In this document: positions 9,315 through 37,262 of the stretch, in pieces | Numbering within the stretch: position 1 is the stretch's first letter | Layout of the letters: every line of letters starts with the position of its first letter | Assembly (NCBI RefSeq): GCF_022489035.1 | Contig: NZ_JAKVTV010000001.1 | Coordinates: 992,001 to 1,056,000, forward strand | Reading direction: 5' to 3' | DNA: 64,000 nucleotides | DNA from: Christiangramia lutea | GTDB lineage: Bacteria > Bacteroidota > Bacteroidia > Flavobacteriales > Flavobacteriaceae | Position numbers and translations under genes: made by a program | Notes under the pieces: generated by a model | The model's database searches: none | Seen by the model: the letters and a program-made list of their open reading frames with translations, nothing else | Told to the model about the DNA's origin: nothing

Positions 9315-12266
9315 TCACTCCAGTATCGAATCGTAGAGAGCCTGCTGTATCTTCGTTCTTGTATTTAGCTTGTACAAACGGGTGTTATTTCTGGTTGGAA
9401 GGACACGGTTAGAGAGAAAAATATATAATAGATCCTCTTTTGGGTCCATCCATACCATAGTTCCTGTAAAACCTGTATGTCCAAAACTATCTGAACTGGC
9501 ATCTTTCGCGGTATTGCTATTTTCACCTTTGTATTCCAGGTAGGGTTTATCAAAAGCCAAGGCACGGTGATTATCATTTTCAGGGAACTGGGTTTTGGTA
9601 AATTCCCTTAAGGTTGCTTCATTAATATATCTTAAGCCTCCATATTCTCCCATATTTAAATACATCTGCATGAGTTTGGCCAGGTCGTTAGCATTGGCAA
9701 AAAGTCCGGCATTGGCAGAAACGCCACCCATCATAATGGCTCCTTCGTCATGAACGTTCCCGTGAATCTCTTCATTCCTGAAATTAAAATCACTTTCTGT
9801 AGGCACAATTCTTTCAATTGGAAATTTTTTGGAAGGATTATAAGTTACGGTCGTTGCACCCAGTTTATCATAGAAATTTGTATTGATATAATCTACGAAA
9901 TCTTCATTCGAGATCTTCCCTACGATCTCAGGTAAGAGATAAAAAACAAGGCCGGAATACTTGTATTTTGCCTCAGCTTCCAAAGGCGACTTCTTTATGG
10001 CCTTATAAATTTTCTTTTTGTAATTACGGTGCAGCCAGAGTTCATCGCTTACCCGAACTGGGTACCTGGCTGAAGAATCCTTCTTAAAAGTATACCATTT
10101 AAAACTCCCATTATCGCGAAGGGTATTTTTCCAATAAGGGATCCATGGTTTAAATCTAGCCTGGTGAGCAAGGATCTGCCTGAAAGCAATATCCTCTTTA
10201 TTCGAATTATTGAAATAAGGGAGATAATCTTCTATTCCAGCCTGAAGATCGAACTTTCCCTCGTCATAAAGTTTCATAAGTGCCGGCAAGGCTGTAGATA
10301 TTTTACTAACAGAAGCGAGATCATAAATATCTGATCTTTCAACTTTGATAGTATCGCTGTATTTGTGCAGGCCATAAGCCTTATGAAAAACTACTTTTTG
10401 ATCCCTTGCAACCAACACTACTCCTCCCGGTGTTGCCTTCATATCGATTGCTTCATTCATCAGGGAGTCTATTGCGTTTCCCAGTTTTTTTGAATCCATA
10501 CCGGCATCCTCCGGATTTGTATATTTAAACCTTAACCCTCCATTAAGCTCCAGTCCATCTCCGGCTTTAAATTTTTCTCCCACCGAAACTGGCAGTTTTC
10601 CCGTCGCTCCAATTCCACCAAAGATCAACTGCGCAGATAATTCCTGTGAAATTTCTGTATCCTGGTATGCTTCTATTAATACAGCAGAGTTTTCTATGTT
10701 TTCCAGCTTATCGAGCACGTATGGATTTTTGAATATGCTGAAAATTGAATTTTTACTCTCTGAAAGTTCTGAAATGAATTTCTGAACATCTTCTGAAAGT
10801 TGTATCTGGTTTCTTGACCTTATGCTGAAATCATGTAAACCAACGATAACCAGATTATAATCCTCTAGCTTCTCTTTCAGGTTTTCGATGTCGGTTGTAT
10901 TGGCTTCTCGATCCAACTGAAAATCATCAACCCTGGTATAGAGTTTAAGAGTCTTCTGGAACTCTGTGATTTCAGATGCTCCAATCGAAACCGAAGCTAT
11001 TTTCAGGCTGTCCAGCCTTCTCAAAGGCAGTAAAGAATTTTCATTTTTTAATAGAGTAAGGGAGGCTTCAACCAGTTTTCGGTTCAATAATTTTGCTTCA
11101 GGCTTATTCAGTTCTTTTTCTATATTTTCAACCGGAAGAGGTTCATAATTATCCAATCCTACCCATTGCTTCACCGCCAGGATCTTTCTGCATCGCGCAT
11201 CGATCTTTTTCTGGGTAATAATTCCCTCATCTATGGCTTTTCTAATCTCAGAGATTGCCTTTGGAATATCTTCTGAAAACTCCAGCAGATCATTCCCCGC
11301 CAGGATAGCTTCTTTATCTACCACTCCGGGTTCATTCCCTTCTGCCACACCTTTCATGTTCATAGCATCGGTTACAATAAGTCCTTTAAAGCCAAGTCTT
11401 TCTTTCAGAATTCCAGTAATTATAGGTTTGGATAAGGTTGATGGAGTTCCAGTGGAATCCAATGCGGGAATATCCAGGTGAGCGACCATCACTCCGCCAA
11501 TTCCTTCATTAATCAGCTCTCTGAATGGGTACATTTCCAGGTCATCCAATCTTTCAAAAGGGTGATTAATCTGGGGCAGGGCATAATGTGAATCTGTATC
11601 TGTATCACCATGACCAGGAAAATGCTTTGCCGTAGCCAGAAGGTTCTCGCTCTGCATTCCTTTCATGTAGGCAATTCCCTTTTGAGTAACATTCAACTTG
11701 TCTTCACCAAACGATCGATAATTGATAACCGGATTTTGGGGATTATTGTTCACGTCTACTACAGGTCCAAAATTGATATGCAGCCCAGTGCGTTTCAATT
11801 GCCTGGCGACCTCAACACCCATTTCATAGATCAATTCTTCATCCTGAATTGCCCCAAGGCCCATCTGGTAGGGAAAGCTTATGGTATTATCCAGTCTCAT
11901 GCCCAGCCCCCATTCTGCATCTATTGCTCCAATAATTGGAACTTTTGAAGCCTGCTGATATTCGTTCATCAATTTCAACTGAGACTTTGGATCTCCCTGC
12001 ATGAAAATGAGTCCACCTATTTTATATTCCCTGATGTATTTCAGGACTTCTTTTTTATGTTCTTCATCTTTATTTGAAAAAGCCGGAATCATTAAAAGCT
12101 GGGCGATACGCTCATCAGGAGTCAATTCCGTCATGACCGAATCTACCCATTTGCTGTTCGTATATTTTAAAAACTCAGGTTCCTTTCGCTGTATTTCCTG
12201 TGCTAAGAATTCATTTCCGAAGATCAGGGCGGTGATCACCACCAGAAGGGATTTATTCAACTGCAT
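9315..12266 (-). CDS. NagZ-type GH3 N-acetylglucosaminidase fused to an AmiE-like serine hydrolase
   Basis: A 983-residue exported fusion; the signal peptide ends near residue 22 (FLAQ). Residues ~35-570 are a GH3 enzyme with KHFPGHGDT and the NagZ Asp225-Ser-His227 acid/base dyad, and VTDAMNMKG with nucleophile Asp300. This type removes GlcNAc from GlcNAc-MurNAc. Residues ~600-983 are a class C beta-lactamase-fold domain with Ser652-x-x-Lys655 (SVSK), a YSG second motif and HTG near residue 930. In Bacillus subtilis the same two functions are separate neighbours, NagZ and AmiE (a beta-lactamase-fold MurNAc-L-Ala amidase, next to murQ). The fused domain is therefore plausibly an amidase rather than a resistance enzyme. 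It lies 15 bp behind the NagX-like gene and is probably cotranscribed. Confidence 0.88.
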   Translation of the reverse strand: MQLNKSLLVVITALIFGNEFLAQEIQRKEPEFLKYTNSKWVDSVMTELTPDERIAQLLMIPAFSNKDEEHKKEVLKYIREYKIGGLIFMQGDPKSQLKLMNEYQQASKVPIIGAIDAEWGLGMRLDNTISFPYQMGLGAIQDEELIYEMGVEVARQLKRTGLHINFGPVVDVNNNPQNPVINYRSFGEDKLNVTQKGIAYMKGMQSENLLATAKHFPGHGDTDTDSHYALPQINHPFERLDDLEMYPFRELINEGIGGVMVAHLDIPALDSTGTPSTLSKPIITGILKERLGFKGLIVTDAMNMKGVAEGNEPGVVDKEAILAGNDLLEFSEDIPKAISEIRKAIDEGIITQKKIDARCRKILAVKQWVGLDNYEPLPVENIEKELNKPEAKLLNRKLVEASLTLLKNENSLLPLRRLDSLKIASVSIGASEITEFQKTLKLYTRVDDFQLDREANTTDIENLKEKLEDYNLVIVGLHDFSIRSRNQIQLSEDVQKFISELSESKNSIFSIFKNPYVLDKLENIENSAVLIEAYQDTEISQELSAQLIFGGIGATGKLPVSVGEKFKAGDGLELNGGLRFKYTNPEDAGMDSKKLGNAIDSLMNEAIDMKATPGGVVLVARDQKVVFHKAYGLHKYSDTIKVERSDIYDLASVSKISTALPALMKLYDEGKFDLQAGIEDYLPYFNNSNKEDIAFRQILAHQARFKPWIPYWKNTLRDNGSFKWYTFKKDSSARYPVRVSDELWLHRNYKKKIYKAIKKSPLEAEAKYKYSGLVFYLLPEIVGKISNEDFVDYINTNFYDKLGATTVTYNPSKKFPIERIVPTESDFNFRNEEIHGNVHDEGAIMMGGVSANAGLFANANDLAKLMQMYLNMGEYGGLRYINEATLREFTKTQFPENDNHRALAFDKPYLEYKGENSNTAKDASSDSFGHTGFTGTMVWMDPKEDLLYIFLSNRVLPTRNNTRLYKLNTRTKIQQALYDSILE

Positions 12267-12281
12267 TTAGAATTTTCTCTT

Positions 12282-13418
12282 TTAAACTTTTATATAAATC
12301 TTTCTTTTGTCCAAAATATAACCAATAACCCACATTAGAAGCACATAAGAAACTGCAAAAGCCAGGGAAGCATTATAATCACTTAGCCAGCTTAGATAGA
12401 ACTTATTATAGATCCAGGGTTTCATTGGTTCTCCATCAAAATATATAATTGCCATAAGCATAACTACAACTCCAGACATTATAAAAATGAAAAGCGGGTT
12501 CTTCCCGAATGCCTCAAAAAAATAGGTCCATTTTTTTAATCCGAAAACCTCAATTACCAGGATTAGCGCGGCGAGGATTAACAAATCCCAACCGATGCTG
12601 TAAAGGACAAAAGTACTTGTCCAGATGCCTTTATTAATTGGGAAATATGGTGCCCATAGCAAAGCAGCTACTAATATAATAACTCCTGCAGCAGCTAAAC
12701 AGATCACTGTAGTTACATTATTACCAGATCTCTGAATGAATTTTCCAGCAATATAACCGGCAACAATATTTACTATCGCAGGTAATGTGCTTAAAAGACC
12801 TTCCGGATCAAAGGGAGTCCCAAATCCGTTCCATAGATTTTCTTTTCCAAAAATTAGCAGATCCAGTTTTAGGGCGGCATTGTTTTCCAAGCTATATGGA
12901 TTGGGATGTGTACCGAAATACCACATTATACCCCAATAAACCAGGAGAATCAAACTGCTTAGAAGGAGCACTTGTTTTACTTTCAAATAATGCAAAATAA
13001 GTGAAGCGAAGAGATAGCAAAGTGCGATCCTCTGCAATACCCCCATGATGCGAATTTTACTAAAATCCTTCAGCACCAGTTCCTCACCATTATGAAATAC
13101 AAATGGGAATGCATTAAGTAATAAACCTATTACAAAAATCAGTGCACTCCTGCTGAGCACTTTTTTGAGAAAATCTGAATCAGACCGGTTTTCATATTTC
13201 CGCAGGCTGAAACTCGCCGCATTTCCTATAACAAATAGAAAGGTTGGAAAAACAAGATCTGTAATGGTGAATCCATGCCAGGCCGCATGCTTGAATGGCG
13301 CATATATATTAGACCAGCTACCGGGCGTATTAACAAGTATCATTAAGGCGATAGTCATCCCCCTTAACACATCCAGTGCAAGATACCTATGATTTCCAAC
13401 GACGCCAGTTTTATTCAT
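12282..13418 (-). CDS. NagX-like transmembrane acetyltransferase (HGSNAT/DUF1624-type)
   Basis: A 378-residue inner-membrane protein with about ten TM segments. The start RYLALDVLRGMTIALMILVNTPG and HAAWHGFTITDLVFPTFLFVIGNA are the hallmarks of the heparan-alpha-glucosaminide acetyltransferase-like family. Its bacterial member NagX recurs in GlcNAc-utilisation clusters, for example in Shewanella. The conserved His in AAWHGFT corresponds to the loop where the human enzyme carries its acetylated His. A possible job is acetylating de-N-acetylated amino sugars, or transport; the biochemical role is not settled. It is divergent from the ROK regulator across a 228-bp region and cotranscribed with the NagZ/AmiE-like fusion. 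Confidence 0.82.
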   Translation of the reverse strand: MNKTGVVGNHRYLALDVLRGMTIALMILVNTPGSWSNIYAPFKHAAWHGFTITDLVFPTFLFVIGNAASFSLRKYENRSDSDFLKKVLSRSALIFVIGLLLNAFPFVFHNGEELVLKDFSKIRIMGVLQRIALCYLFASLILHYLKVKQVLLLSSLILLVYWGIMWYFGTHPNPYSLENNAALKLDLLIFGKENLWNGFGTPFDPEGLLSTLPAIVNIVAGYIAGKFIQRSGNNVTTVICLAAAGVIILVAALLWAPYFPINKGIWTSTFVLYSIGWDLLILAALILVIEVFGLKKWTYFFEAFGKNPLFIFIMSGVVVMLMAIIYFDGEPMKPWIYNKFYLSWLSDYNASLAFAVSYVLLMWVIGYILDKRKIYIKV

Positions 13419-13522
13419 ATAAGGGTAATTAGATCAAGAATCCAGAGCTATTTTCGGCAACTTTCACTATTAAAGTTTATCTATTAAACATAAAAGTATA
13501 ATTTTTTATCAATTATAGAATC

Positions 13523-13543
13523 TTAAATAAAATTTTTATTTAA
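13523..13543. promoter_or_regulatory. AT-rich palindrome between nagX-like and ROK regulator genes
   Basis: TTAAATAAAA (13523-13532), one central T, then TTTTATTTAA (13534-13543): ten perfect pairs, midway in the divergent promoter region and 33 bp before the ROK -7 box. It is a candidate operator for the ROK repressor encoded next door; AT-richness lowers its significance. Confidence 0.35.
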
Positions 13544-13575
13544 TTGTTTTAAAAAATGGTTTTTTTTTATATTTT

Positions 13576-13583
13576 TAATTTTG
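13576..13583 (+). promoter_or_regulatory. -7 box of the ROK regulator / nagB-like operon
   Basis: TAATTTTG matches TAnnTTTG and lies 64 bp upstream of the ATG at 13647. No -33 TTG at 19-21 nt. Confidence 0.45.
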
Positions 13584-13646
13584 GCTTTAGGAAACTTAAA
13601 TAATTAGCTTATTTTGAGCTGCTTTAAAAAATTTCCAAACAATTAT

Positions 13647-14918
13647 ATGACTAAAAATCTACAAGACTTTCTTATTACTGATGATGCCCTAAAAGACATT
13701 AGTAATATTGAAAGGAAAAAGTTTCTTCAAAAGATCAAGATCATCAAATATCTTTTTTTGAATGGCAGCACTTCCAATGCTGATATTTGTGAAAAGTTCG
13801 ATATAAGCCTTCCCACCTCTATGGCCCTGCTTAACCAGCTTATGGAAACCGGAATAGTTGTGAAATCGGGTCAGGGTAAATCTGAAGGTGGTAGAAAGCC
13901 AGATCTTTACGGACTCAAAGAACAGTCCTTTTTTGTATTAAGTATCCACATTAAACGCTTTAAAATAAAGATCGCAGTCACAGATAATAATCATTCCATA
14001 ATAATGGAAGAATCTATCGCGACAGAGATCTCCCCGAATTCTAATATCGTCGACCTGCTTTATGAGAAATCTCAGGAAGTGATCGAAAAATCAGGGATAG
14101 ACTCTGAAAAGCTTCTTGGGGTTGGTATTAGTATGCCGGGACTGGTATCTTCAACAGAAGGTAAGAACTTTACCTATTACCTTACTGAACAGGAACCAGA
14201 ATCCCTACAGGATAAATTTGAAAAGAAGTTTAGGAAACCCGTGGTGATCCTTAATGACACGAAAAGTGCCTGCCTTGCCGAATATAGATTCGGATTAGCC
14301 AAAAACAAACAAAATGTACTAGTAATCTCGATGGATTGGGGTATTGGACTAGGAATTATTATGGGTGGTAAAATGCATACGGGTCATTCCGGGTTTGCCG
14401 GTGAATTCGGGCATATACCTATGACCGAGGACGGATTGCTATGTCATTGCGGAAAAAGAGGATGCCTTGAGACGGAGGCCTCTGGCTTAGCCCTGGTAAG
14501 AAAAGCCAAAGAGGGACTGGAAAAAGGACAAACCTCGATCCTGAACAACCTTAAAGGCGAAGATTTTGAAAAAATGGATCCTCACGTGATTATCCAGGCA
14601 GCAAACAAGGGAGACCAGTTTGCCATTAATCTGTTATCGGAAATTGGAATTAACCTGGGTAAAGGAATAGCAATACTTATCCAGATCTTCAACCCGGAAC
14701 TTATCATCCTGGAAAGTGAGATCGCACAGGCAAAACAGTTTATCACCACCCCAATTCAACAATCTACGAACACTTATTGCATGATGCAGCTAAAAGAGAA
14801 AACGAGTATAGAACTCTCCAATCTCGGCCCTAATTCAGGTTTATTTGGCGGCACCATCGCAGTTATGGAAGAAATATTTAAAGATCAGGTAGCCATGCTA
14901 AAAGCAAGCAATGGCTAG
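13647..14918 (+). CDS. ROK-family transcriptional regulator (NagC/Mlc-like)
   Basis: A 423-residue protein. Residues ~20-90 are a winged helix-turn-helix (IIKYLFLNGSTSNADICEKF, TSMALLNQLMETGIV, SEGGRKPDLYGL). A full ROK domain follows with VGISMPG, the Zn motif CHCGKRGCLE after GEFGHIP, and LGKGIAILIQIFNPELIIL. NagC/Mlc proteins of this build repress amino-sugar genes and release DNA on binding a sugar phosphate. The ATG at 13647 is preferred over an upstream in-frame TTG at 13614. It leads the operon of regulator, NagB/PIG-L fusion and amidase, and is divergent from the NagX/NagZ pair; it is the only sugar-type regulator in the cluster. The effector is inferred (GlcNAc-6-P or MurNAc-6-P). 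Confidence 0.9.
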   Translation: MTKNLQDFLITDDALKDISNIERKKFLQKIKIIKYLFLNGSTSNADICEKFDISLPTSMALLNQLMETGIVVKSGQGKSEGGRKPDLYGLKEQSFFVLSIHIKRFKIKIAVTDNNHSIIMEESIATEISPNSNIVDLLYEKSQEVIEKSGIDSEKLLGVGISMPGLVSSTEGKNFTYYLTEQEPESLQDKFEKKFRKPVVILNDTKSACLAEYRFGLAKNKQNVLVISMDWGIGLGIIMGGKMHTGHSGFAGEFGHIPMTEDGLLCHCGKRGCLETEASGLALVRKAKEGLEKGQTSILNNLKGEDFEKMDPHVIIQAANKGDQFAINLLSEIGINLGKGIAILIQIFNPELIILESEIAQAKQFITTPIQQSTNTYCMMQLKEKTSIELSNLGPNSGLFGGTIAVMEEIFKDQVAMLKASNG

Positions 14919-14946
14919 CTGAAAGGAAAATTTATATTCAACAGTT

Positions 14947-16866
14947 ATGGCCAGATTAAACCTATTGGAAGAGACCCGCTTCGAGAAATTAGCGGTGAAT
15001 GTTTTTGAAGACGAACATATTGCGGCAAAAAAAGTTGCACGAAGAATCGCCGATATTATTATTTCCAAGCAGAAGGAAAATAAAAATGCGGTTTTAGGTT
15101 TGGCCACAGGAGCTACTCCTGTTGAGGTTTATGAAGAACTGGTTAGGCTGTATCGGGAAGAAGGTTTAAGTTTTAAAAATGTGATCACCTTTAACCTCGA
15201 CGAATATTACCCCATGAAACCCGAAGCTAAACAAAGCTATGTAAGGTTCATGGATGAACAATTGTTCGACCATATAGATATTCCCCGGGAAAATATTCAT
15301 ATTCCAGATGGAACCCTGAAAAAGGAGGAGATTGCTGATTACTGCCTTGAATATGAAAGAAAGATAACCGATGTAGGCGGTTTAGATCTACAAGTTCTGG
15401 GAATTGGTAGAACCGGGCACATTGGTTTTAATGAACCTGGGTCAGCCCCGAATTCCGGAACCAGGCTGGTTACTCTGGACGACCTAACCCGTCGTGATGC
15501 CTCCAGAGAATTTGGAGGAAAGGAGAATGTGCCCACCAAGGCTATCACAATGGGAATTGGTACCATTTTCAAGGCCAAGGAGATCATCCTTATGGCCTGG
15601 AGCAAAAAGAAAGCACCAATAATCCGGAAAGCGGTGGAAGGAGAGATCTCCTCGAATGTTCCCGCTACTTTTTTACAGTTATCAGATAATGTTGAATTCA
15701 TCCTGGACAAGGACGCCGCATCTGAACTTACCAGATTCGACACGCCCTGGTTGGTTAAAGATTGTAACTGGACCCCTGCCCTGATTAAAAAAGCGGTGAT
15801 CTGGTTGTCCAGAAATGTCAACAAACCAATTCTAAAATTAACCGAAGAAGATTACAATTCCAACGGAATGGCTCAGCTGGCTACTGAGCAAGGTCCCGCA
15901 TATGATATCAACATTAGTGTTTTCAATGAATTGCAACATAGCATAACCGGTTGGCCCGGAGGTAAACCCAATGCCGATGATTCTCAGCGTCCGGAACGTA
16001 TGGAACCTTCGCACAAGAGATGCTTGATCTTTAGTCCACATCCAGATGATGACGTCATCTCCATGGGAGGCACGTTCATTCGCCTGGTAGACCAGGGACA
16101 TGATGTTCATGTCGCTTATCAAACTTCGGGAAATACCGCAGTTTGGGATACAGACGTTTTAAGGTACATGGAATTCGCTATAGATTTCAAAAAAAGCATT
16201 GGTGAAGACACGGCCAAATTTGAGGGGATTTACGACAAAATGAGAAGTTTCCTTAAAACGAAACAACCCAATGATATAGACCTTGAAGAAATCCAGGAAG
16301 TAAAAGGATTTATAAGAAAAACTGAAGCGATCGCCGGTGCCCGGTATGCCGGGCTTAAGGATGATCAGATACATTTCATGGCGCTTCCTTTTTATGAAAC
16401 AGGAAAAAAGAAAAAGAACCCGGTAACCGAGGAAGATGTGAAACTAACTATGGATCTTCTTAAAAAGATCAAACCTCATCAGGTTTTTGCAGCGGGCGAT
16501 TTTGCCGATCCTCATGGCACCCATATTGTATGTTTCCGTATCATACTTGAGGCCCTCACCCGACTTAAAAAGACTGAAGACTGGGTAAAAGACTGCTGGT
16601 TATGGTTATACCGAGGCGCCTGGCAGGAATTCCAGGTTCATGAGATCGAAATGGCCGTGCCTCTTTCTCCGCAGGAAGTTCAGCGGAAAAGACATGCAAT
16701 CTTCCAGCATCAGTCGCAAAAAGATCGTCCGGTTTTCCCTGGAGACGACGAACGTGAGTTTTGGATAAGAGCCGAGGAAAGAAACCGTGAAACGGCAGTG
16801 AACTATCATAAACTGGGACTCGCCAATTATGAGGCTATGGAAGCTTTTGTAAGATGGAAATTTTAG
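14947..16866 (+). CDS. Glucosamine-6-phosphate deaminase-like domain fused to PIG-L/LmbE deacetylase
   Basis: A 639-residue cytosolic fusion. Residues ~1-290 match NagB: LGLATGATPVEVYEEL (phosphate loop), TFNLDEYY with Asp85 (E. coli Asp72) and GIGRTGHIGFNEPGS with His158 and Glu163. The canonical Asp of the NDGH motif (E. coli Asp141) is Thr156 here. Residues ~355-600 are a PIG-L de-N-acetylase with SPHPDDDVISMGG (Zn ligands His365 and Asp368) and GDFADPHGTH. The pair could carry out successive deacetylation and deamination of GlcNAc-6-P to fructose-6-P, which would explain the missing nagA. Alternatively the deacetylase acts on another amino sugar. The gene starts 28 bp after the ROK regulator and 20 bp before the amidase. 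Confidence 0.88.
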   Translation: MARLNLLEETRFEKLAVNVFEDEHIAAKKVARRIADIIISKQKENKNAVLGLATGATPVEVYEELVRLYREEGLSFKNVITFNLDEYYPMKPEAKQSYVRFMDEQLFDHIDIPRENIHIPDGTLKKEEIADYCLEYERKITDVGGLDLQVLGIGRTGHIGFNEPGSAPNSGTRLVTLDDLTRRDASREFGGKENVPTKAITMGIGTIFKAKEIILMAWSKKKAPIIRKAVEGEISSNVPATFLQLSDNVEFILDKDAASELTRFDTPWLVKDCNWTPALIKKAVIWLSRNVNKPILKLTEEDYNSNGMAQLATEQGPAYDINISVFNELQHSITGWPGGKPNADDSQRPERMEPSHKRCLIFSPHPDDDVISMGGTFIRLVDQGHDVHVAYQTSGNTAVWDTDVLRYMEFAIDFKKSIGEDTAKFEGIYDKMRSFLKTKQPNDIDLEEIQEVKGFIRKTEAIAGARYAGLKDDQIHFMALPFYETGKKKKNPVTEEDVKLTMDLLKKIKPHQVFAAGDFADPHGTHIVCFRIILEALTRLKKTEDWVKDCWLWLYRGAWQEFQVHEIEMAVPLSPQEVQRKRHAIFQHQSQKDRPVFPGDDEREFWIRAEERNRETAVNYHKLGLANYEAMEAFVRWKF

Positions 16867-16886
16867 GCAATTAAAATCCTAATTAA

Positions 16887-23240: not shown

Positions 23241-23251
23241 TAGGGGCAAAA

Positions 23252-29307: not shown

Positions 29308-29517
29308 TGGTTTTAGTTTTTGTGAATAATTCGATTGCGTTTTCTTAACACACAATTAGTTTGATTAGCTAGTTAAATTATGTTAATACTCTAAAAGACA
29401 TATTTTAAGTTAATATATCAATTCCATAACCTAAAATATAATTTTCATCAGTAAATTTAAAAATTTCCATTAAAATAAGACTACTTTTTCAATTTTTTTA
29501 TAGAACTAATATTGGAT

Positions 29518-29566: not shown

Positions 29567-29593
29567 ATTATTTAAGTTTTAGTCTTAAATAAT
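29567..29593. promoter_or_regulatory. Second inverted repeat upstream of susC, ROK-operator-like
   Basis: ATTATTTAAG (29567-29576) and CTTAAATAAT (29584-29593) are perfect complements around a 7-nt loop. The half sites TTATTT and AAATAA resemble those of NagC/Mlc operators, although the spacing (13 nt) differs somewhat. It is a candidate site for the ROK repressor encoded at 13647. Confidence 0.4.
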
Positions 29594-29634
29594 TTAACAT
29601 TTAAATTGGATAGTAAAAAGTTCAGATTGTTGAT

Positions 29635-30750
29635 CTATTTCAAGGCTTTAAGCACATCGAGATGTTCCTTTTTAAGCGCACCTCCATCAAATAACGAGAT
29701 CCCTAAAGCACCGTTATTTTTAGCTTCATCTATAGCATTCTGTAGGTCGTCAGCTGTCATACTTGGAATAAAAACACCGGAATGTAATTCTGTATTCCTT
29801 CCTTTCAGATCTTCTACTCCCTGTTTAGTAGCATAGCCAATCCAATCAATATCCTCATTATAGAAGTTATGATAGATCATTGGGAGAACGGCATCGATCT
29901 TCCACTTATCCCAGCGCTGCCTTACCATATGATCAGCCATTTCAGGATAAGGAAAAACTGCCGCAGTTAAATTTTTACCATTTTCGTGCACTACGGAATA
30001 AGCCTCGTCTACAACCGATTTGATCTTATTCAACCTGAATTGTTTCCATTCCATATCCAGTGCCGGATTTTCAAAATCTCTCGGGTTTTTGCCATGCTCT
30101 TTTTCAAATTCTGAAATACAAACATCGCAATAGCAGAAATCAAATTCAGGAAGTTCTTCCTCCTGCTGTAGATCATACTTTGGTAAAAGCCCAATTGGTA
30201 GAAAAATGTCCGGTAGCCTTATATAATCGAGATGAACACTGGCCACATCCTCCACCTTGGAAAGACCTTCTACCAAACCAAGTACGTGTTCACGGGATTC
30301 CTTCCTTGTAGGGCACATCCACTGATAGTAATCTACATAAGGTCTTGTATCATGAGTAGATTTACCGTCACGGCTTACGGCATACCAGTCTGGATGCTCC
30401 AAAGCTACGCTGTCTCCAGGTCTATTCATGGCCATGATCCAGGCATGCACTTCTAAACCTTCGTTTTTTGCCAAAGGAGTAACCCTGGAAAGAAGTTCTG
30501 GATCTGTATTTGTATTGATCAATACCGCGTCTATGCCATTCTCAGCATACTTTTTATATTCTGCAGTATACGATGAATCTGTTCTCTTATTATTAGCGCC
30601 TGTCCATACCCAGATTTTGAAGCCTTCCTTCTTCTTTTCTGATACTTCTGCTGTTGAATCTTTATTTTCTTCGGAATCAGCTGATCTTTCGGCGCAGGAA
30701 AATATAGAGATCGCTAACATTAAAATGAAAAGCCTGGAGATTTGTTTCAT
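29635..30750 (-). CDS. Putative GHL-type TIM-barrel hydrolase lipoprotein
   Basis: A 371-residue lipoprotein (lipobox SIFSC). The barrel pattern resembles the GHL10/DUF4015-like group: GFKIWVWTGA, NGIDAVLINTNTDPELL, EVHAWIMAMNRPG, WYAVSRDGKSTHDTRPYVDYYQWMCPT, VASVHLDYIRLPD, AVLPMIYHNFYNEDIDWIG and GALGISLFDGGAL. The LDYIRLPD segment aligns with the HFDDYFYPY position of GHL10 proteins. A Cys-rich FCYCDVCISEF insert is unusual. The exact activity is unknown; a second glycan-strand hydrolase for the same substrate is plausible. It sits 6 bp after the CBM9-like gene and ends the upstream half of the minus-strand run. Confidence 0.7.
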   Translation of the reverse strand: MKQISRLFILMLAISIFSCAERSADSEENKDSTAEVSEKKKEGFKIWVWTGANNKRTDSSYTAEYKKYAENGIDAVLINTNTDPELLSRVTPLAKNEGLEVHAWIMAMNRPGDSVALEHPDWYAVSRDGKSTHDTRPYVDYYQWMCPTRKESREHVLGLVEGLSKVEDVASVHLDYIRLPDIFLPIGLLPKYDLQQEEELPEFDFCYCDVCISEFEKEHGKNPRDFENPALDMEWKQFRLNKIKSVVDEAYSVVHENGKNLTAAVFPYPEMADHMVRQRWDKWKIDAVLPMIYHNFYNEDIDWIGYATKQGVEDLKGRNTELHSGVFIPSMTADDLQNAIDEAKNNGALGISLFDGGALKKEHLDVLKALK

Positions 30751-30756
30751 AAGTAA

Positions 30757-31812
30757 TTAGAGTTTAGTTAAATGACCGTCTTCTTTGATTATATAGGTTT
30801 CCCCTGTAAAAGGACTTTTTGCTAAAATATTCCAACCTGTGGAATGGTTTTCGAGTTCTGTATCCAAGACCTGATCGTTAATCTTCATAGGCGTCTTTAA
30901 AACTTCCCCTATCTCTTCTGCCCATTTGCCATTTTTACGCTTATAAGCTTTCTGAGCTCTATAAAGTTTAAAAAGTGCCCATTTTATCTGCTCATCCAGC
31001 GGAATTTTAAATCCATCTGTTTCACCGGCATTCTTAGAGGAAAAGTATACATAACCCCAATGCTCTGGTTCATGCATATTAATAACTCCCTGGGGTGACC
31101 AAACCCAGTTATATTCCGGTAGAAAATCTCCATTTTCATCGGTCTTTCGCGAATAGGTATTTCCATCCAGATCAAAATCCCAGTTAACCCTCGAAAAATT
31201 GACACGCCAGAAATTGTTAATATGGCCATCTCCAAAAACATTTGCCTCTTCAAGAACTTCCCATGGAATAGCAACCTCAACACTCCAGAAATTATCTTCA
31301 TCTGAAGGATCATTCAAAGTACCATTAATGTTTACAGCAGTTCTCAATCCATTGATGGTCCAATTGTCGATAATTGGAGAAGGCTCACGGTAGGGTTTAA
31401 CAATGAAAAGATCCCAAACCGTGTTCAGGGCATTCATTTCAAATTCCATGTAATTATGGGAATCACCGTCTGGATCTATAAAAATCTCGAAGTCGTTATT
31501 GTAAAAAATAACGGTATCTCTTTGTTTTAAAGTAGCCCAAATATGGGGCTCCTCCATCTTTGCATAAAAGTACAGGTAGGTGTCGTCCCATAACATTTTG
31601 ACATTGGTTCTATATTTTGGAGTTTTCTCACCTTCAATATCTATGAAATCTGAACTATAATCTACCTTGGCCCAGGAAGCTTCGTTGGCAAGACCATCAA
31701 CTTCAATGGAATCTATAGTTCGATATGCTATATAGCTACGCGGAGTTTTCTGGGAATAGAGTAAAGAACCTCCAAGAAATAACACAACTAATAGGAGTAA
31801 AAGTTTATTCAT
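30757..31812 (-). CDS. Secreted carbohydrate-binding protein, CBM9-like
   Basis: A 351-residue exported protein (signal peptide to ~20, SLLYSQ). Residues ~28-245 match the family 9-like carbohydrate-binding domain: SIEVDGLANEASWAKVDYS, VKMLWDDTYLYFYAKMEEP, DTVIFYNNDFEIFIDPDGD, YMEFEMNALNTVWDL and WSVEVAIPWEVL. No catalytic motif is seen, and the C-terminal ~90 residues (ALFKLYRAQKAYKRKNGKW) are unassigned. Proteins of this kind accompany glycan-degrading enzymes in Bacteroidetes and probably bind the substrate. It lies between murQ and the GHL-type hydrolase. Confidence 0.8.
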   Translation of the reverse strand: MNKLLLLLVVLFLGGSLLYSQKTPRSYIAYRTIDSIEVDGLANEASWAKVDYSSDFIDIEGEKTPKYRTNVKMLWDDTYLYFYAKMEEPHIWATLKQRDTVIFYNNDFEIFIDPDGDSHNYMEFEMNALNTVWDLFIVKPYREPSPIIDNWTINGLRTAVNINGTLNDPSDEDNFWSVEVAIPWEVLEEANVFGDGHINNFWRVNFSRVNWDFDLDGNTYSRKTDENGDFLPEYNWVWSPQGVINMHEPEHWGYVYFSSKNAGETDGFKIPLDEQIKWALFKLYRAQKAYKRKNGKWAEEIGEVLKTPMKINDQVLDTELENHSTGWNILAKSPFTGETYIIKEDGHLTKL

Positions 31813-31850
31813 TGTTTACATATAAATGGCTGAATGAATAAAATTTGTCA

Positions 31851-31872
31851 TTTCGGCCGAAAGCGGCCAAAA
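31851..31872 (-). other. Intercistronic hairpin between murQ and the CBM9-like gene
   Basis: GGCCG (31855-31859) and CGGCC (31864-31868) pair around a 4-nt loop; on the minus-strand RNA the stem extends by a wobble and three A-U pairs. No T run follows, so it is more likely an RNA-processing or stability element than a terminator. Confidence 0.4.
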
Positions 31873-31878
31873 GATCAG

Positions 31879-32709
31879 TTATTCATCCTGCTTATAATTC
31901 TTAAGCACGTTACGAACACTTCCGTGTTTCATTAATAGTTTTCCAGCCTCCTCTTCTTCAATTCCAAGTTCCTCCATGATCATACGGGTTCCACGGCCTA
32001 CCAGCTTAACATTGGAAAGCTGCATATCTACCATCTTATTTCCTTTTACTCTTCCCAGTTTGATCATTACGGATGTAGAGATCATATTAAGCACCATTTT
32101 TTGGGCAGTTCCTGCTTTCATCCGTGTACTTCCAGTAACGAATTCCGGACCTGTTACCACTTCGATAGGATATTCTGAAGCTTCTGCCAGCGGGCTTCCA
32201 GAACTACAGGTAATACAGCCGGTAACAATTCCCTGTTTTCTGCAGTCCTTGATCCCACCAATTACATAAGGCGTAGTTCCTGAAGCAGCGATGCCAATTA
32301 CCACATCGTTTTCTGAAATATCATGTTCCTGAAGATCTTTCCAGGCCTGGTTGGTATCATCCTCTGCATTTTCTACAGCATTTCTTAAAGCAGTATCCCC
32401 TCCAGCGATTAATCCTATCACAATTCCCGGACTCACCCCAAATGTTGGCGGACACTCGGAAGCATCCAGGACTCCCAATCTTCCACTGGTTCCTGCGCCT
32501 ATGTAAAACAATCTTCCTCCCTTTTTAATTTTAGGAACGATGATATCTACCAGTTTTTCTATATATGTGATCTGTTTTTTAACATTGCCAGCTATAGATT
32601 GATCTTCTTTATTAATATTCGACAATAATTCAAGCGTGTTCATCTTTTCCAGATGATCGTAATTCGATACTTTCTCTGTATCCGGATTCTTTTTATTCAT
32701 CTTCTTCAT
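31879..32709 (-). CDS. murQ: N-acetylmuramic acid 6-phosphate etherase
   Basis: A 276-residue SIS-domain lyase that removes D-lactate from MurNAc-6-P to give GlcNAc-6-P. This is a diagnostic step of murein recycling. Motifs: GGRLFYIGAGTSGRLGVLDASECPPTFG (sugar-phosphate loop and catalytic Glu, quoted at 28 residues only by its parts GAGTSGRLG and DASECPPTFG), AGGDTALRNAVENAEDD, DVVIGIAASGTTPYV, NPEFVTGSTRMKAGTAQK-like EFVTGSTRMKAGTAQK, and VKLVGRGTRM. It overlaps the GH20 gene by 17 bp, so the two are translationally coupled. Two ATGs, at 32709 and 32700, are possible starts. Confidence 0.96.
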   Translation of the reverse strand: MKKMNKKNPDTEKVSNYDHLEKMNTLELLSNINKEDQSIAGNVKKQITYIEKLVDIIVPKIKKGGRLFYIGAGTSGRLGVLDASECPPTFGVSPGIVIGLIAGGDTALRNAVENAEDDTNQAWKDLQEHDISENDVVIGIAASGTTPYVIGGIKDCRKQGIVTGCITCSSGSPLAEASEYPIEVVTGPEFVTGSTRMKAGTAQKMVLNMISTSVMIKLGRVKGNKMVDMQLSNVKLVGRGTRMIMEELGIEEEEAGKLLMKHGSVRNVLKNYKQDE

Positions 32710-34276
32710 TTGAAAGTTTTTCAGAGAAAACTCCTTTTTCTCCTGTGTTTCTCCATTTCACTTCCGGGCTTTTGAAATAGTTTATTCCAAGTTCATCCAT
32801 TCTAAGCCCGTGTTCAGCCAGCCTTTCCGTAAAATCCTGGAAATTTCTCTTTTCAGCATTTGTCCAGGCTACTTCAGCCATGGCAATGCTTCTGGGCCAT
32901 AACCTGTCGTCTGCCCGGTCATCACTTATCACCAGCTCACTCCAAACAGGAGCTTCCACACCAATAACCCGTTTATCGTTTGTATTGTAACTATAAACCT
33001 TTTCCAGGCTCACCCCTTCTTTATTACACCATTTATAAGTGTTTTCCTGGTCTTGAACGTTTCCGTGATCCAGGTAAAAGAATTTACAGAAGGAATCTAT
33101 TATTTTCTGGTCTTTGGCTATTTCTGTCTCACCGTTCCATCTTTGTACTATAAAACTATCACTTAATTCAGCTTTAGCACTTTCTTCCCAGCCAATGGCA
33201 GATTTTTCATATTTTCTAACTATTGCATCTGCTTTTTGAATGAATTCCTCATATAAAGGATCCTCGATCTCATCACCACCAATATGAATCCATTTTCCGG
33301 TAGTGATTTCAGATAACTCCTTTATAATATTTTCAACGAATTCATAAGTTTTATCATCTTCCAGGCATAACCTGGTCCAGCCAACATTATAACCATCATA
33401 TAATTCGGGAGGAGTTGCCCTTTTAGGCTCAATATTTTTATTGTTATCACAGTTCAATTCCGGATAAGAAGCAAGAGCGGCATAAACGTGGCCAGGCATA
33501 TCAATTTCCGGGATGATCACGATATTTCTCCTGGCAGCATATTCCTGAAGCTCGATATATTCCTTTTGGGTCAAAAATCCCGATCTTCCATTTTTAACTG
33601 CACTCTTCCCTCCTGTTTCGGTAAGTTCTGGATATTTTTTGATCTCTATTCTCCAGCCCTGATCATCGCTTAAATGGAGATGTAAACGGTTCATTTTATA
33701 AAAAGCCATCCTGTCTATATGCTTCTTTATATATTCCTTTGATAGAAAACTACGGGCCACATCCAGCATACTTCCCCTCCAGGAATAAGCAGGATTATCA
33801 GTAATTTCTACAAATTTTAGTTTGATTGAAGAATAAGATTTACCGCTTTCTATTTCTGGCGGGAACATTTGTCTCAAGGTTTGAATCCCGTAGAACATAC
33901 CGGCCTCGGTTGCACTTTTTATGCTAATTCCAGAAGAATTGATCACTAACTGATATCCCTCCTCACCGAGGTCTGTCTTTAATCCCGCATCTACCTGAAG
34001 ATTCCAGTTACCACAATTATCACCCTCTTTTAATTCTGTCTTTGTACCTGCAGCCTGAAGTAGTTTCTGGATCCATTTAGTTGAACTAGCGGCAGTTTCA
34101 TTAAAACAAATGATATTTTTGTTTGGGATACTATAACTTCCCGATTCCCAATTCAAAGTTTGAGGCATAGGAATGATCGAAGGAGTTTCTTCGGAATTTT
34201 GCATTCCAAAACCTGATAGGTTCAGGCTTAAAGCAATTCCTAGACAAATGAGATATTTGGTAAAATTTGAAATCAT
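32693..34276 (-). CDS. GH20 beta-N-acetylhexosaminidase
   Basis: A 527-residue exported exo-glycosidase (signal peptide to ~25). The N-terminal GH20b domain (SIIPMPQTLNWESG, GYQLVINSSGISIKSA, GMFYGIQTLRQMFP) precedes the GH20 barrel with SWRGSMLDVARSFLS, RLHLHLSDDQGWRIEIKKYP, IPEIDMPGHVYAAL and IHIGGDE (catalytic Asp335-Glu336). The end carries WTNAEKRNFQDF. It releases terminal GlcNAc by substrate-assisted catalysis. In this locus it could act on murein or chitin oligosaccharides. It overlaps murQ and follows the creatininase-like gene by 38 bp. Confidence 0.94.
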   Translation of the reverse strand: MISNFTKYLICLGIALSLNLSGFGMQNSEETPSIIPMPQTLNWESGSYSIPNKNIICFNETAASSTKWIQKLLQAAGTKTELKEGDNCGNWNLQVDAGLKTDLGEEGYQLVINSSGISIKSATEAGMFYGIQTLRQMFPPEIESGKSYSSIKLKFVEITDNPAYSWRGSMLDVARSFLSKEYIKKHIDRMAFYKMNRLHLHLSDDQGWRIEIKKYPELTETGGKSAVKNGRSGFLTQKEYIELQEYAARRNIVIIPEIDMPGHVYAALASYPELNCDNNKNIEPKRATPPELYDGYNVGWTRLCLEDDKTYEFVENIIKELSEITTGKWIHIGGDEIEDPLYEEFIQKADAIVRKYEKSAIGWEESAKAELSDSFIVQRWNGETEIAKDQKIIDSFCKFFYLDHGNVQDQENTYKWCNKEGVSLEKVYSYNTNDKRVIGVEAPVWSELVISDDRADDRLWPRSIAMAEVAWTNAEKRNFQDFTERLAEHGLRMDELGINYFKSPEVKWRNTGEKGVFSEKLSNEEDE

Positions 34277-34314
34277 ATTTTGGAATTTATCTGGCCAGTT
34301 AGCGAACAGGCGCG

Positions 34315-35079
34315 TTATTGTTCGTAGCGTTCATCAATATTAATTTCAGAAACTTCAATTATAAGTTCTGCCAATTTTCTCGAAACCAAATTAAAAAATC
34401 CTTCACCTTTTTCTGAGGTCGCTTTCCTGGGATTTCCAATTCCGGTGTCTTTAGTTACCATAGACCATTGTCTTTCGGCCCAGGCCCATCCTTCCCTGAT
34501 TCCGGTAATTTTAGATTTATTCTCCTTGCCATCTCCAGCTTTTTCAAGATCTGAAACCAAATCTGGTCTCAGATGCAGCATAAGACTGCTCTCCATTTCA
34601 TCTGCATGATCACCCTCCTCTTCAAAAAATTCAGTCTTTTCTGAAAACTTGAAAAAATCTGAAGTAACCAGAAACATTTTTGGAAACTTATATCCCAATT
34701 CTCTCAGTATAGGTTTGAAATTATTGCCTCCGTGACCGTTTAACAAGATAAATTTGTGAATATTTTGCCGGTCGAGAACTTCAATAATATCATAAAGTAT
34801 TGCCCGTTGGGTACTTGGAAGCAGGTTAATATCAAGAGTTATATCGGCCTGCCCCGTATTCACTCCAAAGGGGATATTTGGAAGCAGTTTAACCTTAGCT
34901 CCATTTTCGAAAGCCAACTTCGCAGCTTCGGCAGCAACCGCCTCTACCTGGTAATTATCTGTTCCGTAGGGTAAATGATAATTATGCGCTTCAGTAGCAC
35001 CCCAGGTGAGGACAGCAACTTCAATTTCTTCATCCTTAATAATTCTCCAGTTATTTTCAGCTAGAATATAAGGTCTCAT
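34315..35079 (-). CDS. Creatininase-family metal-dependent amidohydrolase
   Basis: A 254-residue cytosolic protein of the creatininase fold. Expected metal ligands are all present: WGATEAHNYHLPYGTDNY (Glu, His, Asp), LLNGHGGN (His) and GDHADEMESSLML (Glu). Relatives hydrolyse creatinine, formamido intermediates (ArfB) or process mycofactocin (MftE). None of these fits here, and the gene is inserted between transporter and GH20 in an amino-sugar cluster. Its start overlaps the MFS stop by 4 bp (ATGA). A hydrolase for an amide or lactam product of murein is possible, but this is a guess. Confidence 0.85.
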   Translation of the reverse strand: MRPYILAENNWRIIKDEEIEVAVLTWGATEAHNYHLPYGTDNYQVEAVAAEAAKLAFENGAKVKLLPNIPFGVNTGQADITLDINLLPSTQRAILYDIIEVLDRQNIHKFILLNGHGGNNFKPILRELGYKFPKMFLVTSDFFKFSEKTEFFEEEGDHADEMESSLMLHLRPDLVSDLEKAGDGKENKSKITGIREGWAWAERQWSMVTKDTGIGNPRKATSEKGEGFFNLVSRKLAELIIEVSEINIDERYEQ

Positions 35080-36362
35080 GATCTTCTAATTTTATATCCC
35101 AATACGGCAAAATATAGGATGAACAGGTAGCATGGTATCATCACCCAGTAAGCATCCTGCGGATTCCAGGTTTCTGCCAAAGCTCCATATGCCAGCGGTA
35201 TTATTGCTCCCCCGGCTATACCCATCACCAGTAGTGAGGAAGCAGCTTTCGTAAATCTACCTACATCGGCCAGGGCCATGGGCCAGATCGCAGGCCACAT
35301 TAATGAATTCGCCAATCCTAATAATGCGATAAATGCTAGAGATACATAGCCTTCTGTAAAAATCGCCAGAATGGAGAATACAATTCCCAGTACCGCGGAA
35401 ACTCTTAAAGCATTTTCCTGACTTATTACCTTTGGAATGGTAATTATCCCTATGATATAACCAATCACCATCGAAACCATGGTTCCGGTAGCAAAATACT
35501 TAGCTGTAGTAAGGGCGATTCCCTGTGAGGCACCATAACTTATAATACTATCTGCGGCGATCACCTCTACTCCTACGTAAAGGAAAAGCGTTATAACACC
35601 CAGGATAACATGTGGAAAATCGAAAACACTGGTTTTACCCGCGTTGGTTGTTGAAAGAGTTTCATCTTCCTCATCGGTATCTACTTCTGGAAGGCTGGAT
35701 TTAAAAACCCAAAAAGCCAGTATCAAGAGAACGGCGATTATCCCTATGTATGGTGGGATCACTCTTAAAGCCATTTCATTTAATTCGTTGATCCTTTCGG
35801 CGGAAGTGAGGTTGGCTATATCCGATTGCAGTTCATCTGCCTTTTCAAGTTGAAGGAAAAATCCGATCAATATTGGAGCAATAGCCCCGGCAAGTTTATT
35901 ACAGATTCCCATGATACTTATACGCTTAGCAGCACTTTCTGCCGGGCCAACTATGGTCACGTATGGATTTGATGCAGTTTGCAGAATTGCGAGTCCGCTA
36001 CCCATTATAAACAAGCCTGAAAGAAAAAGCAGGTAGGTTCTGGTAATAGCAGCAGGAATAAATAACAAGGCTCCAAAAGCCATGATCACCAATGCGACAG
36101 ACATTCCTTTCTTAAAGCCTAACCAATTCAGGGTTTTGGTTGAAACCGGTGCCATCACCACATAAGCTATATAAAATGCGAAAGTGACGAAAAAAGACTG
36201 GAATTTGGTTAGTTCACACGCAATTTCCAGGTAGGGTATTAATAGGGAATTTAGCCAGGTAACGAACCCGAAAATGAAAAATAAAGCTCCTATGATAATT
36301 ATGGACCGGGTTGTACTTCCTTCTACCCGATTAGCTTTTTCTTCTGCAACTGAGTTTGCCAT
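35076..36362 (-). CDS. MFS sugar transporter (FucP/NagP-like)
   Basis: A 428-residue inner-membrane carrier with 12 TM segments. FIFGFVTWLNSLLIPYLEIAC, FYIAYVVMAPVST, GLFIMGSGLAILQTASNPYV and LGLANSLMWPAIWPMAL are the typical motifs of the FucP/GluP/NagP group of proton-coupled sugar carriers. NagP transports GlcNAc in other bacteria, and a related carrier (MurT) imports MurNAc in Tannerella. In this operon GlcNAc or MurNAc is the expected cargo. It is 18 bp after the ROK kinase and overlaps the creatininase-like gene. Confidence 0.9.
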   Translation of the reverse strand: MANSVAEEKANRVEGSTTRSIIIIGALFFIFGFVTWLNSLLIPYLEIACELTKFQSFFVTFAFYIAYVVMAPVSTKTLNWLGFKKGMSVALVIMAFGALLFIPAAITRTYLLFLSGLFIMGSGLAILQTASNPYVTIVGPAESAAKRISIMGICNKLAGAIAPILIGFFLQLEKADELQSDIANLTSAERINELNEMALRVIPPYIGIIAVLLILAFWVFKSSLPEVDTDEEDETLSTTNAGKTSVFDFPHVILGVITLFLYVGVEVIAADSIISYGASQGIALTTAKYFATGTMVSMVIGYIIGIITIPKVISQENALRVSAVLGIVFSILAIFTEGYVSLAFIALLGLANSLMWPAIWPMALADVGRFTKAASSLLVMGIAGGAIIPLAYGALAETWNPQDAYWVMIPCYLFILYFAVLGYKIRRS

Positions 36363-36380
36363 ATTGATTTGAAGTGATAT

Positions 36381-37262
36381 TTAAGATGATAAAGATTTGT
36401 TTGAGTCTTTTTTATTCTCGGCTTCTGAAATAATAAGTGCCGCAGCACCTAAGATCGAAATATTATTAGTGTATGCGGTTTGAATTACCAGCATTTCCAG
36501 AATCTTTTTGAAAGGAAAGCTTTCCAATGAGTTATATAAACTCGCTTCAAAATATTTAAATGATCTGCTTACCGAACCTCCCAGAAAAATTGCTTCTGGA
36601 GAAAGGATATAAAGTATGGTTTTTATAGCGTTGGCCAGATGTACTCCAAATTCATCCAGAATCTTTAGAGCTTCAGGATCACCTTTTTCAGCATTTTTGA
36701 AAACGGTGGTTCCGCTCAAATTATATTGCTCCCGGAAAAACTTTCCACTACAGTAATCTTCTATTGTCTTATCTAAATAAGGAATACTGCCCAGTTCTCC
36801 GGCACCGGAAAGATTACCGGAATAAAGCTTATTATTCGCTATAATACCTGTGCCAAAACCAGTTCCCATGGTGATCCCTACCATACTCCTGTAATCTTTA
36901 CCTTTTCCAAAGATCTTCTCTCCGAGAGCAAAAACATTAGCATCATTGGTGATCATCACCTGAATTTTAAAATGATCTTCAAGATGTTTTTTAAGCTCCA
37001 CTCTTTTCCAGGAAGATATATTCAAAAGATCAAAGACGATTCCTTTTTTCTCATCAACCAGGCCAGGAACCCCTATTCCAATACCTTGTAGGTCATGATC
37101 TCCAAGTGATTCGATACCATTAATGAGGTTATGTATTATATCTTCTTTGGAAGCATCAGGGAGGGTTGGAAATTGAACCTCCTGTATCACCTTATTACCT
37201 TCAACAACACCAAGATGAATTTTGGTAGCACCAATATCTACTCCTAAAATTTTATTATCCAT
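36381..37262 (-). CDS. ROK-family sugar kinase lacking the zinc motif
   Basis: A 293-residue cytosolic kinase without an HTH. The phosphate loop ILGVDIGATKIHLGVV, GIGVPGLVD, catalytic Asp107 in TNDANVFALGE, GTGFGTGIIANN and AIKTILYILSPEAIFLGG match ROK kinases. The sugar-binding region reads GAGELGSIP (Glu156 kept, the usual His replaced by Ser159). The CxCGxxGC zinc cluster is replaced by a segment with a single Cys (EDYCSG). It is predicted to phosphorylate GlcNAc, MurNAc or both to the 6-phosphates needed by MurQ and the NagB fusion. It is first gene of the minus-strand run. Confidence 0.88.
   Translation of the reverse strand: MDNKILGVDIGATKIHLGVVEGNKVIQEVQFPTLPDASKEDIIHNLINGIESLGDHDLQGIGIGVPGLVDEKKGIVFDLLNISSWKRVELKKHLEDHFKIQVMITNDANVFALGEKIFGKGKDYRSMVGITMGTGFGTGIIANNKLYSGNLSGAGELGSIPYLDKTIEDYCSGKFFREQYNLSGTTVFKNAEKGDPEALKILDEFGVHLANAIKTILYILSPEAIFLGGSVSRSFKYFEASLYNSLESFPFKKILEMLVIQTAYTNNISILGAAALIISEAENKKDSNKSLSS

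Follow-up and report, generated by a model that had tools for sequence, protein, structure and literature searches.

A SusCD cassette between the GHL10 and MurQ genes of a predicted muropeptide and amino-sugar catabolic gene run in Christiangramia lutea

The segment of the Christiangramia lutea genome described here is a stretch of 64,000 nucleotides, positions 992001-1056000 of contig C1 of genome G000, which we refer to as the window, and between its positions 9315 and 37262 there are 19 genes among which a susC/susD pair (SusCD) is embedded in a set predicted to act on murein and amino sugars. The pair lies exactly at the junction of the GHL10 and MurQ genes, which three SusCD lineages use as a site for such predicted importer cassettes; we call this junction the slot, and the five genes that fill it in the window the type A cassette. 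A first-pass annotation had claimed a gene run with a murein-active set at this location, and profile searches and reading of the open reading frames in the window show that it is present (GH3-AmiE, amidase, NlpC/P60, epimerase, GHL10, GH18, SusCD, MurQ, GH20, NagB-PIG-L, carriers, and the ROK kinase and regulator). The run is contiguous as described, but its 18 genes become 19, and the NagX-like, CBM9-type and creatininase-family genes had been missed. The genes are as follows.

9315-12266, minus strand: GH3 (NagZ-type) fused to an AmiE-like serine beta-lactamase-fold domain, with a signal peptide-like N terminus (PF00933 and PF00144)
12282-13418, minus strand: NagX-like membrane acetyltransferase homologue (NF046061, 164 bits, below the cut-off of 480; no Pfam match)
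13614-14918, plus strand: NagC-like ROK regulator with a winged helix-turn-helix (PF00480 and PF13412; best NCBIfam match NF047937, 206 bits, below the cut-off of 650)
14947-16866, plus strand: NagB deaminase fused to a PIG-L deacetylase (NF002557, 1068 bits, cut-off 384)
16887-17822, plus strand: AmpD/AmiD-type N-acetylmuramoyl-L-alanine amidase, lipobox-like Cys (PF01510)
17895-19118, minus strand: NlpC/P60 and SH3 domains, putatively of the gamma-D-Glu-diaminopimelate endopeptidase type, lipobox-like Cys; part of the conserved core (PF00877; 3NPF and 3PVQ, 291 and 285 bits)
19132-20151, minus strand: L-Ala-D/L-Glu-type dipeptide epimerase (PF13378; best PDB match 3IJI, 208 bits; D-x-D motif)
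20160-21608, minus strand: SSF sodium:solute symporter (PF00474)
21609-23249, minus strand: GHL10 glycan hydrolase (Cwp19/DigH type), a lipoprotein; left edge of the slot (PF02638, 222 bits; Cwp19, 256 bits)
23252-24400, minus strand: GH18 chitinase-type lipoprotein, type A cassette (PF00704; DGIDLDWE; 5GZU, 389 bits)
24511-26214, minus strand: SusD lipoprotein (SusD-like_2), type A cassette (PF12771/PF12741; SusD tree)
26224-29355, minus strand: SusC TonB-dependent transporter, type A cassette (TIGR04056, 659 bits, cut-off 368; SusC tree)
29635-30750, minus strand: GHLb, a TIM-barrel-like lipoprotein, type A cassette (weak PF02638, 38 bits; model with a mean predicted local distance difference test score, pLDDT, of 68)
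30757-31812, minus strand: CBM9-type protein, type A cassette (PF06452; near SusCD in 12/52 loci)
31879-32709, minus strand: MurQ, N-acetylmuramic acid (MurNAc)-6-phosphate etherase; right edge of the slot (TIGR00274, 317 bits, cut-off 302)
32693-34276, minus strand: GH20 beta-hexosaminidase (PF00728; HIGGDE)
34315-35079, minus strand: creatininase-family amidohydrolase (PF02633; 3LUB, 194 bits)
35076-36362, minus strand: major facilitator superfamily (MFS) carrier, NagP/FucP-GluP type (NF046060, 389 bits, below the cut-off of 625; TIGR01272, 297 bits, cut-off 203)
36381-37262, minus strand: ROK sugar kinase (PF00480; all NCBIfam kinase models below cut-off)

The run is not a single operon, since the regulator, NagB-PIG-L and amidase genes (13614-17822) are on the plus strand and the remaining genes on the minus strand. 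The minus-strand stretch from the NlpC gene to the ROK kinase gene is nonetheless compact: of its 13 gaps, 11 do not exceed 66 bp, two of these being overlaps, and the two wider gaps measure 110 bp (GH18/SusD) and 279 bp (SusC/GHLb). The susC and susD genes adjoin with 9 bp between them, and the glycan-active enzymes GH18, GHL10, GH20 and GH3 are co-located with the pair.

Those enzyme functions in the first-pass annotation that could be checked agree with the nearest solved relatives and with intact motifs. The closest relative of GHL10 in a PDB sequence search is Cwp19, a lytic transglycosylase according to the title of its paper (PMC6016235). Both of the chains nearest to the NlpC/P60 protein, 3NPF and 3PVQ, are named dipeptidyl-peptidase VI; for the epimerase the best match is a record titled muconate cycloisomerase (3IJI) and the second a chain named dipeptide epimerase (3JVA), and the GH3 relatives are 6K5J, a GH3 beta-N-acetylglucosaminidase, and YbbD/NagZ. 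The active-site motifs of GH18, GH3, GH20, NlpC, the amidase and the SxxK of the AmiE-like domain are intact, and the strings KHFPGHG..D.H and SVSK (GH3-AmiE), DGIDLDWE (GH18) and HIGGDE (GH20) are present; the patterns used for these, and for the D-x-D of the epimerase, are ones that we take to be typical. A simple pattern finds a lipobox-like cysteine on five enzymes (amidase, NlpC, GHL10, GH18 and GHLb) as well as on SusD, so that much of the cutting is predicted to take place outside the cytoplasm, and MurQ, the epimerase, the kinase, NagB-PIG-L and the creatininase-family protein, which have no such signal, look cytoplasmic.

GHLb had been called a second GHL-type hydrolase, of which the weak GHL10 match stands, but no PDB sequence relative was found at E up to 1. 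An attempt to derive its substrate from the fold led nowhere, as the loops of the predicted model score low and its best matches are assorted TIM barrels (beta-amylase, GH164, GH20 and old yellow enzyme) with TM-scores of about 0.5.

To follow the slot across the genus we surveyed the MurQ regions of 21 genomes, the window included, with one further genome (G499) added later to give 22; genomes are designated by G numbers and loci by L numbers, and two genomes (G507 and G508, 73% and 67% complete) were left out. MurQ is present in all 24 genus genomes and the window's SusD in seven of the 24. The core genes NlpC-GHL10-MurQ are found beside LepA in every one of the 22 genomes read, and we regard the murein core of the locus as firmly established. 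The slot exists in several states. The type A arrangement (GH18-SusD-SusC-GHLb-CBM9) fills it in six genomes (G000, which is that of the window, G489, G497, G506, G490, and G494, the last without GHLb), and a different pair, type B, whose SusC is 35-37% to that of the window, is found in four (G491, G493, G500 and G511). GH18 alone occupies the slot in two (full length in G496, a 93-residue piece in G509), and the slot is empty in the remaining ten of 22 (nine of 21 before G499), with GHL10 and MurQ overlapping or at most 99 bp apart (-4 to 99 bp; an overlap of 1 bp in G499). In another genus (G031) the same slot contains a gene for a DUF4397 protein and a third pair (SusC 34%, SusD 29%), in a cluster that also holds NamZ, an amidase, an epimerase and NlpC. 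Because three sister species (G489, G497 and G506) have the full gene set of the window at 64-92% protein identity, the gene arrangement is not due to chance. The 93-residue GH18 piece in the otherwise empty slot of G509 (L079-L080) has the appearance of a scar left by a lost type A cassette. In Gramella jeungdoensis (L033/G498) the slot is empty, and the cassette lies on a contig other than that of the murein core; its gene order there (G498:C21) is CBM9-GHLb-SusC-SusD, and the site, which Salegentibacter shares, is flanked by an AraC-family gene and, on the opposite side, by one of the Na:sulphate symporter family.

The presence of SusCD follows the size of the surrounding cluster. Clusters were classed as extended if SSF and GH20 are present and as minimal otherwise; SusCD is in the slot in nine of 12 extended and one of nine minimal clusters (Fisher p 0.0075), or one of ten minimal clusters with G499 included (p 0.0037), with counts entered by hand and relatedness of the genomes ignored in both tests.

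Several other genes were noted in and around these clusters. The creatininase-family gene is found in nine of the 12 extended clusters and in no minimal one, and its product could act on an amide in a muropeptide or amino-sugar route. NamZ, an exo-muramidase, is fused to Amidase_2 in the clusters of G511 and G493 (L093:12785-14542 and L078:7002-8768) and, by similarity, in G031. Two species have a GH9 gene, from what is usually a cellulase family, within their murein cluster (L034:16076-17881, and L092:2638-4515 in G496), flanked either by SSF and the epimerase or by NlpC and GHL10. In several relatives (L081:14647-16491, L078:5143-7059 and L114:5281-7122) the amidase and NlpC genes have between them one that encodes a beta-propeller fused to a calcineurin-like phosphoesterase, and genes similar to it occur close to the G391 and G134 murein clusters.

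The type B lineage keeps murein-related company elsewhere. Of its relatives at 73-74%, the one in G119 has an epimerase gene and a NamZ-like gene nearby and the one in G030 adjoins GHL10; since NamZ, MurQ, epimerase or GHL10 genes are found alongside type B and its closest kin, SusCD-coupled murein loci recur. In a SusC tree, made by a quick method with Shimodaira-Hasegawa-like approximate likelihood ratio test (SH-aLRT) support only and with many long branches, type B joins the SusCs from the G391, G292 and G134 murein clusters in one clade (SH-aLRT 99), adjoined by a control SusC (G470), and the murein SusCs of G014 and G125 and the third type of G031 are placed elsewhere. A single clade for all murein-linked SusCs is rejected, as the nine so labelled require six changes on the tree, and this scatter suggests that murein clusters have recruited SusCD several times. 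The occurrence of unrelated SusCD pairs at the same junction, some in clusters with a NamZ-amidase (G493, G511 and G031), lends further support to the first-pass description of a muropeptide catabolic cluster with SusCD inside it.

Outside the genus, MurQ is near-universal (269 of 296 genomes of a class-wide sample), and SusC is found at four of 20 class-wide MurQ sites and at five of 20 control sites located 100 kb away on the same contigs. These counts do not support MurQ as an indicator of feeding on the walls of other bacteria, and we dropped it as a marker of murein feeding; NamZ alone, present in 188 of 199 genomes, was dropped likewise. Among 29 MurQ sites (the 20 class-wide sites plus nine from the same family, three of them shortened by contig ends), SusC is present at four of five with SSF or NamZ and at one of 24 bare sites (p 0.001), the grouping having been made after the data were viewed. 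A wider comparison (8/9 versus 5/20) is biased, because G134 and G173 were picked with their SusD matches already known; its MurQ-chosen part gives 4/5 (p 0.04). In other genera, clusters of the GH3-AmiE/SSF/NamZ/SusD/SusC kind contain second copies of MurQ, and murein clusters with SSF or NamZ together with SusCD are found in G391, G292, G125, G134, G173, G014 and G129. An oxidase with flavin adenine dinucleotide (FAD) and 4Fe-4S domains, which these domains suggest to be a D-lactate dehydrogenase, is also in the clusters of G391, G134, G173 and G125, and the C. lutea genome encodes a protein 58% identical to it. Genes for a DeoR-type regulator of some 250 residues are found repeatedly near murein clusters that carry SusCD (L160:14285-15034, with relatives in G391, G292, G134, G014 and G129, and about 15 kb away in G119), the assignment being by Pfam for the G030 copy and by similarity for the others.

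NamZ sites show a mixed picture. At single-copy sites in other genomes SusC is present in one of seven, at the far end of the stretch, and the NamZ site of C. lutea itself has none. Three of ten sites in multi-copy genomes (G129:C6, G024 and G146) lack SusC, on the first pass of scoring, and MurQ; the other NamZ site of G014 has SusC and no MurQ. Extra NamZ copies, for example in G013, G032, G119 and G122, are outside this count.

These data bear on whether the murein genes could simply carry out housekeeping recycling, with the SusCD cassette a chance neighbour that is functionally unconnected to them. The ubiquity of MurQ, the lack of SusC enrichment at class-wide MurQ sites, and the location of the cassette at another site in G. 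jeungdoensis would all be accommodated by such an explanation. We nevertheless consider it improbable, as three SusCD lineages occupy the same narrow junction, the genes are tightly packed and co-directional, and SusCD recurs with GH3-AmiE, SSF, NamZ and MurQ in other genera, albeit in the post hoc grouping above.

We favor, with confidence slightly better than even, a reading in which an old murein-recycling core lies at the heart of an extended island for the catabolism of amino sugars and muropeptides, and in which the type A SusCD imports murein fragments. A role in murein and amino-sugar catabolism is supported by the predicted gene functions, as is the service of SusCD pairs to such clusters, apparently through repeated recruitment of different lineages, and it is plausible that this particular pair imports murein. 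The lipoproteins GHL10, GH18, GHLb, the amidase and NlpC, at the surface or in the periplasm, would cut wall-derived or other glycan containing N-acetylglucosamine (GlcNAc); SusD would capture the oligosaccharides and SusC draw them into the periplasm, where GH3-AmiE and GH20 may remove GlcNAc and free MurNAc from MurNAc-peptide. The SSF carrier, which would be MurT-like, and the NagP-like MFS carrier would then bring the sugars in. Phosphorylation could be provided by the ROK kinase of the locus and by kinases encoded elsewhere, as AnmK scores over its cut-off outside the locus, and the MurK family, with no member in the locus, has a single match in the genome, at C23:347083 (30.7 bits, just below the cut-off of 31.5). 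MurQ would yield GlcNAc-6-phosphate and D-lactate, NagB-PIG-L would feed glycolysis, and NlpC and the epimerase would handle the stem peptide. Because NagB is fused to PIG-L and a genome search for NagA gave only matches below cut-off, PIG-L may replace NagA in deacetylating GlcNAc-6-phosphate.

The least certain step is the substrate of the type A SusCD, which may be murein strands and muropeptides or pieces of chitin or N-glycan, and several observations weigh against the favored reading at this point. Type A loci number 44 from named genomes plus eight from a family sample, in which this SusD is present in eight of 199 genomes including that of the window; the loci differ in length, with some contigs ending near SusD, and the closest named SusD is that of Christiangramia gaetbulicola (90% identity). 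MurQ (>150 bits) is near the type A SusD in four of 52 loci, all from Christiangramia/Gramella, or four of the 44 that are at least 14 kb long, and MurQ, epimerase and NlpC are beside it in none of 47 loci outside the genus, where some contigs end close to SusD. The first-pass annotation had named segregation of susCD from murQ, epimerase and NlpC genes as an outcome that would refute it, and the type A lineage is segregated in this manner outside the genus whereas type B is not. Its claim that SusCD imports exogenous murein is contradicted in part by this; it is plausible by gene company at this locus but is without such company in the wider type A lineage. Neighbor clusters of 53 type A loci, the window included, comprise GH92 in 13, GH20/GH18 in two, GHLb or CBM9 in seven, and MurQ with GHL10 in five. 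Pfam scans, for which one representative of each neighbor cluster was used, identify GH92, GH20, asparaginase_2, alpha-L-fucosidase and PNGase F, which suggests that part of the lineage keeps N-glycan-like company. GHLb and CBM9 also accompany SusCD at non-murein sites (for example L033 and L039); the GH18 enzyme has a named chitinase as its best PDB match and occurs with GH20 alongside SusCD, as in a chitin polysaccharide utilization locus (PUL). To these are added the three extended clusters with no SusCD in the slot (G509, G492 and G498), the minimal cluster that carries one (G490), the class-wide MurQ counts, and the location of the only NamZ (GH171) gene of the genome at G000:C23:82934, outside the locus. 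The kinase at C23:347083 resembles the Tannerella forsythia MurK chains more than the GlcNAc-kinase chain (112 versus 99 bits), and what GlcNAc-kinase likeness it has also counts on this side.

Much of this evidence could be accounted for if the murein core recycles only the cell's own wall and the type A cassette serves to take up oligosaccharides of chitin, or else the core GlcNAc of N-glycans, having been parked here for a shared GlcNAc pathway (GH20, the NagP-type MFS carrier, the ROK kinase, NagB-PIG-L and NagC), an explanation to which we assign a minor though substantial share of the probability. In the SusD tree the Christiangramia pairs, with that of G. jeungdoensis among them, group together beside Salegentibacter pairs, most of which are in GH92 loci; NagB-PIG-L is near type A pairs in five loci outside the genus, and substrate-specific clustering of SusC/D has been reported (PMC6298971). 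It is less easily reconciled with the insertion of the cassette exactly within the murein core rather than beside the GlcNAc genes, or with the type B pairs, which use the same junction and are murein-linked elsewhere too. The tie to N-glycans is not general, as 26 of the 53 type A loci have none of the scored neighbors, and GH92 was not found anywhere in the C. lutea genome, so there is no complete high-mannose N-glycan pathway for the window's pair to serve. The cassette of G490 is accompanied by NlpC, GHL10 and MurQ only, with GH20, the MFS carrier and the ROK kinase all absent. That the type A pair carries murein pieces remains a guess from company set against a guess from kin, and we rank murein fragments first because of the company that the pair keeps at this locus.

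A broader proposal, which we advance tentatively and at rather less than even confidence, is that the GHL10-MurQ junction acts as a plug-in slot through which a recycling operon becomes a feeding operon by swaps of whole cassettes; at least three SusCD lineages would have been recruited, and that of the window would derive from a lineage that often keeps company with N-glycan-type enzymes and would since have been redirected to bacterial wall glycan. The kind of locus is already known, and the exchangeable slot is the part for which we found no description, no account of such a SusCD slot in a murein operon having turned up in a literature search of limited coverage that left out most subscription literature. 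The type A, type B and empty states are matched natural variants within one genus with which to ask whether SusCD turns wall recycling into wall eating, and if it does, these bacteria would be linked to the marine turnover of dead bacterial material.

In Bacillus subtilis, the NagZ/AmiE rescue pathway uses a GH3 enzyme plus an AmiE-type domain acting on MurNAc-peptides, and the window differs from it in having the two fused in one protein. The same GH3 and beta-lactamase domain pair is present in RmNag3 of Rhodothermus marinus, tied by its authors to peptidoglycan turnover and, in the available part of that paper, not to SusCD (PMC6987092). T. forsythia has an ampG-murT-murK-murQ operon and takes up MurNAc or muropeptides from outside (PMC5790795, PMC5388701). 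It shares with the window the association of MurQ with an SSF-superfamily carrier (PMC5790795), the likeness of the window's carrier to MurT being at superfamily level only; it differs in having MurK inside the operon and, in the available text of these studies, no SusCD tied to it, whereas the MurK-like kinase of C. lutea is encoded elsewhere, and the same text names no outer-membrane muropeptide route in Bacteroidota (PMC5790795, PMC5388701). A peptidoglycan substrate class is in use for SusCD loci, with 69 predicted peptidoglycan PULs in macroalgal Bacteroidota (PMC10233909), which we liken to the window by substrate class only and not by gene content. The closest parallel in gene content is a murQ-susCD PUL of about 27 kb in the Urechidicola symbiont of Idas mussels, a genome in which two of four SusCD pairs are among the most transcribed genes (PMC10199937). 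That PUL has two SusCD pairs, GH171, deoR, dacA and an AmpG-type MFS carrier, its substrate being left open by the authors (PMC10199937), whereas the window has one type A pair, a NagC-like regulator and GHLb/CBM9, with no GH171 in the locus. The two have in common SusCD, murQ, an L-Ala-D/L-Glu epimerase, nagB, ampD, a sodium co-transporter, GH3, GH18 and a 'family 10' enzyme (PMC10199937), and the Urechidicola-type set of SusCD with murQ, epimerase, amidase, GH3 and SSF carrier is complete in the window locus.

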